A stretch of DNA of 64,000 nucleotides from Desulfosporosinus acidiphilus SJ4 (lineage in GTDB: Bacteria > Bacillota > Desulfitobacteriia > Desulfitobacteriales > Desulfitobacteriaceae). The notes under the pieces are model-generated. The model saw only the letters and a list, made by a program, of their open reading frames with translations. It had not been told where the DNA came from and ran no database searches. Position 1 is the first letter of the stretch. Each line of letters begins with the position of its first letter. A program made the translations under genes and the position numbers. The stretch lies in NCBI RefSeq assembly GCF_000255115.2, contig NC_018068.1, positions 3,009,977 through 3,073,976 on the forward strand, in the 5' to 3' direction. Shown here piece by piece: positions 25,708 to 31,959 of this stretch.

Positions 25708-26817
25708 TTAGGATGCTTTTTTCACCTCACATGCTATCGCCCAAACAAAACCCGCTAATTCTCTTGCAACGGCTGCAATTACTTTCCCACTTGGTTTTCC
25801 TCGCCCCATTAATCGTTTATATTTCCGATGTAACCGGTCTTGGGCCTTCCATGCAATCATTGTGATCTCTGGCGGTTTCCCTTGCTGCCTTTTACGAATC
25901 TCCCCCTTTATCGCAGGTGTATAACGATAGCTCCAGGCGGCTTCAATCAATATACGTCGTACATGAGCATTTCCCGTTTTGGTCATCTTTCCCTGATGAC
26001 GTGTTTCTCCCGTCGAGCGCTCGCTTGGAACCAACCCAGTATAAGACATTATTCGTCGGGCACTGCCAAACCGTGTAAACGATCCAATCTCAGCAACTAA
26101 ACTGGTCGCTGATAGCTCTGCCACACCTCGCAGGGTTTGCAGCGCTTGAATCATCGGGGCATGAACACTATCTGTCGCCTGGTCATGAATTTCTGCTTCA
26201 AGCCGTTTTATGCGCTGTTCAATCTCGTCTAAATGGTGAAGGTACTCTTGAAATACTGTACTCTGTGCAGCACGGCTGAACTTCAGAAGGGTCCAGCCCA
26301 ATCCCGGTTAACCTGCTGTCCACTTTTTTATGCCTGCCGGAGGATTTAAGTCATATCGCAATAAGAATTTCGTTAATCGATGCCTTGCTCGAAGCTGATC
26401 CTCTTTTGAATCCTCTCGAGCACGAACTAAATCTCGCAAAGTTTCATCATCCTCAGTAGGAACATAAATGGGGGTTAATTCTCCAGCACGAAATAATTGA
26501 GATAAGCGAATAGCATCACGACGATCGGTTTTTACACGTTCTCCAGGTTTTGTGGGAATCAAAGAAGGAGCTACAACGCTACATTCGATGCCCAGACTAA
26601 GCAATAATCTATAAAGTGGATACCCCGTAGGGCCAGCTTCATAGCAAACTTTGAGTTGTCCCGGTGTTCCTAACTGTTTCATTAACTTTCTAATCGATTC
26701 AGAGTTATTTTGGCAAACACCCCAGTAGCGTGGGGCTTCTCTGCCCTCATCGGCAATTGCAACTGCTATTTTTTCTTTGGATACGTCTAAACCTACGTAT
26801 TTTGTGTTATCCTTCAT
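25708..26817 (-). pseudogene. IS110-family recombinase broken by in-frame TAA
   Basis: DEDD-type recombinase in two same-frame halves. The N-terminal half (26817 to 26308) carries GLDVSKEKIAVAI, YEAGPTGYPLYRLL and KTDRRDAIRLSQLFRAGEL, the RuvC-like DEDD acidic residues. The C-terminal half (to 25708) has LVAEIGSFTRFGSARRIMSYTGLVPSERSTGE and KTGNAHVRRILIEAAWSY, the transposase_20 region with the catalytic Ser. They are split by TAA at 26310-26308. Around it one alternate frame reads NRDWAGP, close to the expected RDWLDP, so several single-base insertions, or assembly errors, are more likely than a plain nonsense change. Probably inactive as one chain. Confidence 0.8.
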
Positions 26818-30348: not shown

Positions 30349-31959
30349 CTACTCCAACAACGATTCCAGGACATTCCATATGGGAGCTAATGAATCCCCA
30401 CGTTTAAGTGATAGTGGAATAGAATAGGGCAGCAATTGTGCTATCCTAGAGATTTCCTCATCATCGTGGACTTTATCAACCTTGTTAAGCAGGGTGATGA
30501 CCGGCTTATCATGACACTCCAATTGTCCTAAAATTTCATGGACCGTCTCAGCTTGCTGCAACGCTTGAGGATGGCTGACATCTAAGACATGAATAAGTAT
30601 ATCTGCCTGCTGGACTTCTTCCAGAGTGGCTAAGAAGGCCTTGAGCAGTTGTGTGGGGAGCTTGCGAATAAATCCTACGGTATCACTCAGCAGAATCTCT
30701 AAAGAGGGCGTAAGTTTTATCCGGCGAACGATGGGATCCAGGGTGGCAAATAGTTTATTTTCTCCGCTTGGGATATCAGAGCGAAAGCCGGCTTGCTCCA
30801 TGGCATTCTTCATAAAGGTTGTCTTTCCGGCATTCGTATAACCAACCAGGGCTATCATAGGCAAGCCGCTTTTAGCCCTTTGCCGCCTCTGAATCTCCCG
30901 GTGCTGGAGAACAAGTTTCAACTCTTTATCCAGGAGATTAATACGCTGCCGCATCCTCCTGCGATCGAGTTCTAGCTTCGTTTCTCCGGGGCCGCGCGAG
31001 CCAATGCCTCCCCCCAACCTGGATAGGGTTTGACCTTGTCCTGTTAAATAGGGCAGCAAGTGCTTAAGCTGAGCGAGTTCAACTTGGAGTTTACCTTCAC
31101 GAGAATGAGCTCTCTGAGCAAAAATATCTAAAATTAATCCCGTCCGGTCTAATATCTTTAATCCCGTTTCCATTTCTAAGGTTCGCAATTGTGAGGGAGA
31201 TAATTCATCATCACTAATGAGGACATCGGCTCGGGTTTCCTGAATCCGGTGAACCAATTCTTCCAGTTTGCCGCTCCCTATGAAGCTCCGAGACTGGCTG
31301 GAGCGACGCGGTTGGACAAGCTGTCCAACCACTTCGACACCCGCAGTGTCCGCTAATTCCGCCAACTCTTCCAGGTTTTCGCTAACTTCCTGCTCCCCAT
31401 CTTGGAGCGCAAGCAGAAAAGCCCGCTCTTTGTCAGGCTTTGATTCCAGTTTTATTTGACTGTTATGATTATGATAATGCTCTTGCTGAGACTCAAAATA
31501 GTTAAATTTGTTCCAGTTATCTGGTTTAAGGTCAACAACATAAGGACTACCGTCACTTGTTAAATAAGCCAATTGAAAACCGGTAAGTTCTCCACGAAGC
31601 ACTCCGATTGCAGTCATGCTTTCAAGCTTTAAAGATGTTAAAGCACTGAAATCCAGAGAACTGAGTCTTGGAACCCCATTGGGATGGGTATGAAGACAGC
31701 GCAAATGTTTGCTCTGAGATCTACCCTTGAGGGGAAGCAGAGTCACTGTCGCATGTTTTCCCACGGCAGACGCGATTAAGAGCCCTGACCGCGAGAGATA
31801 AATACAAATTTCCCGATTCCAAAGCTGTGTCAAGCGTATTAGGCCTGAGAGAATTTCGGGATGAATTAAATCATCCCGCCCCGTTTGATATTCTGAGAGT
31901 TTTTTTAGGTCCCGCAATTGACTAGCTTTTATCCCAGACAAATCGCCCGAGATTTCCAT
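30349..31959 (-). CDS. hflX: HflX ribosome-associated GTPase with N-terminal JAMM-like segment
   Basis: HflX GTPase that binds 50S subunits and splits stalled ribosomes. Core: N-terminal HflX domain from about 178, with GSGKLEEL and FIGSGK, RLGGGIGSRGPGETKLELDRR at 315-335, then the G domain with GYTNAGKTT (373-381), DTVGFIRKLP and NKVDKV. At 536 residues it is about 100 longer than the classical HflX. The extra N-terminus has a motif fitting the JAMM metalloprotease pattern: E50, H90-T-H92, S100 and D103 with exact H-x-H-x7-S-x2-D spacing. Whether it is an active peptidase is unknown. Adjacent to the YnbB-like gene as in Bacillus. ATG start with AGAGG. Confidence 0.92.
   Translation of the reverse strand: MEISGDLSGIKASQLRDLKKLSEYQTGRDDLIHPEILSGLIRLTQLWNREICIYLSRSGLLIASAVGKHATVTLLPLKGRSQSKHLRCLHTHPNGVPRLSSLDFSALTSLKLESMTAIGVLRGELTGFQLAYLTSDGSPYVVDLKPDNWNKFNYFESQQEHYHNHNSQIKLESKPDKERAFLLALQDGEQEVSENLEELAELADTAGVEVVGQLVQPRRSSQSRSFIGSGKLEELVHRIQETRADVLISDDELSPSQLRTLEMETGLKILDRTGLILDIFAQRAHSREGKLQVELAQLKHLLPYLTGQGQTLSRLGGGIGSRGPGETKLELDRRRMRQRINLLDKELKLVLQHREIQRRQRAKSGLPMIALVGYTNAGKTTFMKNAMEQAGFRSDIPSGENKLFATLDPIVRRIKLTPSLEILLSDTVGFIRKLPTQLLKAFLATLEEVQQADILIHVLDVSHPQALQQAETVHEILGQLECHDKPVITLLNKVDKVHDDEEISRIAQLLPYSIPLSLKRGDSLAPIWNVLESLLE

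Follow-up and report, generated by a model that had tools for sequence, protein, structure and literature searches.

The locus and domain layout of the extended HflX

We analysed a 64,000-nucleotide stretch of the Desulfosporosinus acidiphilus SJ4 genome (hereafter the window; contig NC_018068.1, positions 3,009,977 to 3,073,976), in which the gene for the GTPase HflX lies on the reverse strand. Its features, in window coordinates, are as follows.

30349..31959, (-): complete hflX ORF with stop, a JAMM-HflX fusion of 536 aa in one reading frame
31471..31959, (-): JAMM/MPN-like domain, HflX residues 1-163, with E50, H90, H92, S100 and D103 (AF2 model, VIA, conservation)
31810..31812, (-): E50, where the first core strand starts, predicted to act as general base (AF2 model, alignment)
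31651..31692, (-): H90-T-H92-x7-S100-x2-D103, predicted zinc ligands and catalytic serine, in register with RadC HNHP..S..D and Prok-JAB HSHP..S..D
31426..31470, (-): low-confidence linker, residues 164-178 (pLDDT <50)
31117..31380, (-): HflX GTP-bdg_N domain, residues 194-281 (Pfam PF13167, E 6.4e-32)
30877..31113, (-): HflX GTP-bdg_M (helical) domain, residues 283-361 (Pfam PF16360, E 1.3e-29)
30481..30855, (-): HflX GTPase domain (MMR_HSR1), residues 369-493 (Pfam PF01926, E 2.1e-16)

The NCBIfam model GTP_HflX (TIGR03156) matches residues 180-532 with 421.8 bits (E 1.9e-126), passing its cut-off of 216.75. Since this match starts at residue 180 and GTP-bdg_N at residue 194, the classical HflX core is preceded by about 178 residues, in line with the N-terminal extension of roughly 170 residues that a sequence-only reading of this DNA had described. 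The core itself is ordinary: the full-length model matches structures of 50S-bound HflX and HflXr (best E 3.4e-34). From the family and from the likeness of the model to 50S-bound HflX, we infer that this protein would bind and split ribosomes. At the C-terminus (30349-30480), 164 residues follow the P-loop as compared to about 216 in 600-aa forms, i.e. about 50 fewer in this lineage; the residues absent here are from the end of the protein at which other HflX proteins carry a stalk-base-contacting domain.

A JAMM motif in the N-terminal extension

All five residues of the JAMM-type metalloprotease signature claimed in the sequence-only reading, with H-x-H-x7-S-x2-D spacing, were found exactly at the positions given there: E50 (codon 31810-31812), H90 (31690-31692), H92 (31684-31686), S100 (31660-31662) and D103 (31651-31653), all on the (-) strand. 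The extension thus contains every residue by which JAMM/MPN+ domains are recognized (E..HxH..x7..S..x2..D), and its spacing H-T-H-x7-S-x2-D is identical to that of the JAMM motif, EXnHS/THX7SXXD, as worded in an excerpt of PMC300881. The bare pattern H.H.{7}S..D can come from shuffling (it was regenerated in 381 out of 200,000 shuffles of residues 1-178), so that conservation and fold have to carry the decision. Among the 251 stop-to-stop frames of at least 60 residues in the window, there are two matches to the pattern versus 0.08 expected after shuffling, both inside the hflX ORF; the second (HNHNSQIKLESKPD, near residue 163) falls in the low-confidence linker.

Profile comparisons and predicted fold

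Taken alone, the window's extension matches no Pfam family at E <= 10, and nothing significant was found for it in PDB (phmmer), PHROGs or NCBIfam; an 11-bit match between residues 90-113 and the end of the NCBIfam anti-phage model cap2_3 (E 0.096) was not counted. The extension misses the gathering cut-offs of both Pfam Prok-JAB (PF14464) and Pfam RadC (PF04002), each of which weakly matches 12 of 32 relatives (best E 0.0049 and 0.0054, respectively). Using hhalign, we obtained E 4.8e-5 and a probability of 68% against RadC, with HTHP..S..D in register, and Prok-JAB aligned in the same register (E 0.016). The alignment profile also has weak matches in PDB (E 0.035-0.06), including AMSH-LP/Sst2 (E 0.035) and the Prp8 JAB domain (E 0.05). 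In the profile search against MPN/JAB families suggested in the sequence-only reading, the alignment profile reaches RadC, AMSH-LP/Sst2 and Prp8 weakly, and the window sequence alone reaches no family; information came solely from this profile and from the predicted model. We conclude that the domain belongs to MPN/JAMM and that, in the window's protein, it is divergent enough to escape the searched libraries. The term peptidase, which that reading had offered, is not established, because RadC, the nearer of these two JAB profiles, is a clade proposed as nucleases (excerpt of PMC3482391).

The AlphaFold2 model of the domain, built with 32 relatives, has a pLDDT of 85.3 and a pTM of 0.80, with residues 1-163 confident, and its core runs in the order helix, strand (E50), strand, strand (H90, H92), helix (D103) and three strands. 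Foldseek E-values against PDB are weak, none reaching 0.001, at TM of about 0.4: the top match is an Rpn11 homologue (E 1.6e-3), the next ones include RadC and chains of the COP9 signalosome, which we take to be CSN5, and cytidine deaminases appear from rank 8. VIA-align, run on Foldseek's candidates with Z differences <1 read as ties, ranks Pyrococcus furiosus JAMM1 best (Z 8.8, rmsd 3.2 A over 113 residues), followed by scores such as 7.3 for AMSH, 7.3 for the Caldiarchaeum Rpn11 homologue, 7.2 for RadC (2qlc) and 6.5 for AfJAMM; three chains only have Z of at least 8. All 50 VIA entries listed are JAMM/MPN proteins or complexes containing one, where the JAMM/MPN chains of the complexes are those that we take to be so. 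As predicted by AF2 and compared by VIA and Foldseek, the extension would thus have an MPN-like fold, and the refuting outcome named in the sequence-only reading, a predicted fold unlike MPN, did not occur. Residues 1-163 are very probably a JAMM-type domain with intact active-site residues attached to HflX; the fold, the residues and their conservation all lend good support to the earlier JAMM assignment.

Conservation, distribution and degenerate versions

We sampled 299 genomes from the phylum (Bacillota) and scored the extension by profile (at least 59 bits). HflX is found above the family cut-off in 227 of them; in the remaining 72 no HflX passes this curated threshold, which suggests that many of these bacteria can do without the protein. 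The extension was found in 53 genomes, and 46 of these keep all five residues E, H, H, S and D when all 53 are aligned, indicating that the His, Ser and Asp do not vary freely, the point on which a conservation survey had been proposed. None of the seven exceptions (families f42, f94 and f86) has a complete metal site, and H90 is absent from all seven, a joint loss that suits an all-or-none active site. In a group of four genomes (G235, G329, G209 and G259; loci L188-L191), E50, S100 and D103 are kept and Phe and Arg replace the two His; judged from their sequences, these are putative natural 'dead' versions of JAMM-HflX for comparison. None of the five active-site residues aligns in G175 and G097, and the sole aligned residue in G233 is a His at position 92, where the alignment is uncertain. 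As the extension persists in seven of the 53 although their metal site is incomplete, the domain can serve non-catalytically. A long extension without the motif was also found in G207, outside the 53. Apart from the four-genome group, the loci L183, L184, L187 and L192 have long HflX extensions with metal-site residues nearly or wholly lost.

The five residues are invariant in 32 of 32 and in 44 of 44 aligned sequences, both sets chosen as motif-bearing, and in the full-length alignment of 44 motif-bearing proteins they are as invariant as the GTPase motifs. Since only motif-bearing sequences went into alignments A1 and A4, this invariance arises partly by selection; the A1 profile may favour intact relatives, and 46 out of 53 is the fairer figure. 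Among the best 80 of 276 relatives, retrieved by a pattern that fixed RC[IL]HTHPxG alone, S100 and D103 are found in all 80 named loci, which are not independent since 24 of the locus titles are Desulfosporosinus. By title, these best 80 all come from Bacillota groups except for one unplaced 'bacterium', and the carriers include Phascolarctobacterium, Propionispora, Acetivibrio mesophilus and Christensenella.

We also looked for a second HflX in 42 genomes (37 with the full motif and five degenerate ones, G175, G097, G233, G235 and G207). The extended protein is the sole HflX (E <= 1e-30) in all 42, and no separate classical HflX was found beside it in any. G043 has a weak match (E 0.04), no HflX ORF was found in it, and it was excluded.

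Evolution of the fusion

A quick tree was built from 113 of 167 extracted HflX cores, including 69 intact, 36 short and 8 degenerate forms (L193 and L194 were assigned to the short class manually); it omits ten near-duplicates, 18 loci without a detected core, and the majority both of the window's genus and of the named metagenome loci. On this tree the extension is scattered over many families. The intact forms need at least eight changes (shuffled mean 34.9), of which the starred branches force one only, and ten changes are needed for extension versus none. One possible history is a single ancient fusion followed by repeated loss and several decays.

Relation to known systems

The window's protein shares GTP-bdg_N, GTP-bdg_M and MMR_HSR1 with the HflX family (TIGR03156; E. 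coli HflX, Listeria HflX/HflXr) and differs from it by the ~178 extra N-terminal residues, which are MPN-folded in the model. P. furiosus JAMM1 (5ld9/5lda) and AfJAMM (1oi0, 1r5x) have a fold like that of the extension (Z 8.8 and 6.5) at 12-16% identity and, to our knowledge, are not fused to a GTPase. AMSH/Sst2 and Rpn11-type deubiquitinases, which act on ubiquitin in eukaryotes, likewise have an MPN fold, with a weak profile match (E 0.035). The E..HxHx7SxxD pattern is common to the extension and to JAMM1 and AfJAMM (excerpt of PMC300881). RadC (PF04002) resembles the extension in its JAB fold (2qlc, Z 7.2) and in the aligned HxHP..S..D, whereas the window's extension has no Pfam RadC match and genome G000 carries a separate RadC. 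According to an excerpt of PMC12493154, the N-terminal extension (NTE) of mycobacterial HflX sits at the same end of the protein and promotes splitting, but with 39-58 residues it is far below the size of an MPN domain; NTEs are noted there in 'several Clostridium spp.', with no domain named in that excerpt.

We found no report of a fusion of HflX with a JAB/JAMM domain by title or by abstract start, a search whose scope left out most subscription papers and preprints, so that novelty is provisional. HflX is not mentioned in Iyer 2006 (PMC1779556), and the part of the HflXr paper that describes its HflX phylogeny (PMC6310831) mentions no extension. PMC6389857, an HflX paper containing a word that starts with 'jamm', was discarded as the word is 'jamming'. 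The fusion is a real and conserved one, widespread in related bacteria, for which we found no existing name.

Gene neighbourhoods and co-occurring families

With a survey of 27 stretches, in 24 of which hflX was recognised, we identified the genes that recur next to it: methionine gamma-lyase (10), a SpoVK-like AAA gene (7) and typA (4), the lyase and the AAA gene being named by Pfam. These are ordinary housekeeping genes and give no clue to a substrate. A link to RqcH was rejected: NFACT_N (PF05833) is found in 296 of the 299 genomes, so that its co-occurrence has no discriminating power. Neither the hflX neighbourhoods nor NFACT_N across the 299 genomes yielded a neighbour or co-occurring family that names a substrate. 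We note that the window also contains an apparently broken copy of an IS110-family transposase gene (25708-26817, (-)) between ddl and a lexA-like gene, split in two frames that match DEDD_Tnp_IS110 (26308-26817) and Transposase_20 (25708-26301) in Pfam.

Proposed activity on the ribosome and alternative readings

In the full-length model both parts are kept (pLDDT 83.5, pTM 0.63), and the linker has pLDDT <50 at residues 163-178 in the domain model and at residues 166-173 in the full-length model. The drop in pTM to 0.63 and the low-confidence linker make the JAMM domain look tethered rather than docked; rigid docking on HflX was rejected for these reasons, no fixed arrangement is claimed, and in the models the tether is probably flexible. 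Excerpts of PMC12493154 describe HflX as binding the intersubunit face of 50S, with HflX-ND1 displacing H69 and the helical domain extending towards the peptidyl transferase centre, and the short mycobacterial NTE as contacting uL16 and H38 and reaching the H69-H71 junction. Since the JAMM domain is at the same end as that NTE and is held by a flexible linker, it would roam the intersubunit face of the splitting subunit.

As the simplest mechanism we consider targeted hydrolysis, in which the GTPase part would dock on 50S, with GTP-dependent binding serving as targeting, and HflX would split a stalled or idle ribosome; docking and splitting are taken from the literature on the family. Once the subunits part, the JAMM site could meet a substrate exposed on the large subunit, where the domain, presumably with one zinc bound, may hydrolyse an amide-type bond within a peptide or protein substrate; candidate substrates include a ribosome-bound factor, a ribosomal-protein tail and nascent-chain material. 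The domain is quite likely to be catalytic in vivo. The fuller proposal, an MPN+ (JAMM) zinc hydrolase flexibly tethered to an ordinary HflX and targeting a bond in a protein or peptide on the split 50S, has in our judgement about an even chance of being right. Its narrower form, in which the hydrolase would be coupled to splitting and, at the 50S intersubunit face, would cleave either the tail of a ribosomal protein or the stalled product (nascent chain or linkage to the tRNA in peptidyl-tRNA), is decidedly unlikely as it stands. If stalled-product cleavage were true, one bacterial polypeptide would join ribosome splitting and product release by means of the eukaryotic Rpn11 fold. Splitting by HflX is described as mechanical (excerpt of PMC12493154), and if an enzyme domain is delivered there, many Clostridia-type Bacillota would, in addition, carry out a chemical processing step on the split subunit. 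The system is tractable, with a small domain that is well folded in the model, predicted catalytic residues, putative natural 'dead' versions and no second HflX (42 genomes).

Among the other readings, a coincidental motif in an unrelated extension is extremely improbable: the bare pattern does come up in the segment shuffles (381/200,000), but the fold, the conservation and the profile matches all contradict it. A RadC-like nuclease of JAB type that cuts RNA on the split 50S (e.g. tRNA, or the 23S helices near H68-H71) is unlikely; RadC is the better of the two JAB sets compared (E 4.8e-5 versus 0.016 for Prok-JAB), the fusion partner HflX is an rRNA-binding protein, and RadC-clade JABs have been proposed to be nucleases, an activity that is itself a proposal in the excerpt of PMC3482391. 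VIA, however, scores JAMM1 and AMSH, both of peptidase type, no lower than RadC, with differences <1 being ties. The domain might instead be mainly a structural MPN scaffold that aids ND1 docking or rRNA disordering, like the short mycobacterial extension, with any zinc being structural; we regard this as unlikely, even though degenerate versions persist (seven of 53 genomes, families f42, f94 and f86, plus G207 outside the 53) and many MPN domains of eukaryotes have no catalytic activity. A scaffold is also favoured by the mycobacterial extension, whose action is on helices of rRNA (excerpt of PMC12493154), but it would not need E50 and S100 conserved jointly with the zinc ligands, as they are in 46 of 53 genomes.

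The sequence-only reading had also suggested processing of a modifier on stalled ribosomes. Deconjugation of a ubiquitin-like protein of ThiS/MoaD type from ribosomes or stalled chains is very unlikely, despite three points that fit it: the nearest solved folds include AMSH and P. furiosus JAMM1, the latter solved with the ubiquitin-like SAMP2, ThiF-family proteins are present in 46 of the 46 genomes with an intact JAMM-HflX, and cleavage of MoaD-MoaE has been reported for a JAMM protein from Deinococcus (excerpt of PMC8832034). Searching these 46 genomes with PF02597 gave no match in 11, and in four more (G014, G037, G039 and G041) the matches lie only inside frames of 728-744 aa, where they are inferred to be the TGS domains of RelA/SpoT. 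A small ThiS/MoaD-type protein is thus lacking in 15 of 46 overall, so that, by PF02597, such a modifier does not accompany the enzyme in every genome, and the 27 stretches showed no recurring E1 or ubiquitin-like neighbour of hflX. These two results weaken the modifier branch of that reading and leave its JAMM assignment supported. The presence of a JAMM domain in genomes seemingly without small ThiS/MoaD-type proteins also calls into question whether such systems are what bacterial JAMMs other than RadC serve, as has been assumed. The window's own genome has a short ThiS-like frame of 78 residues.
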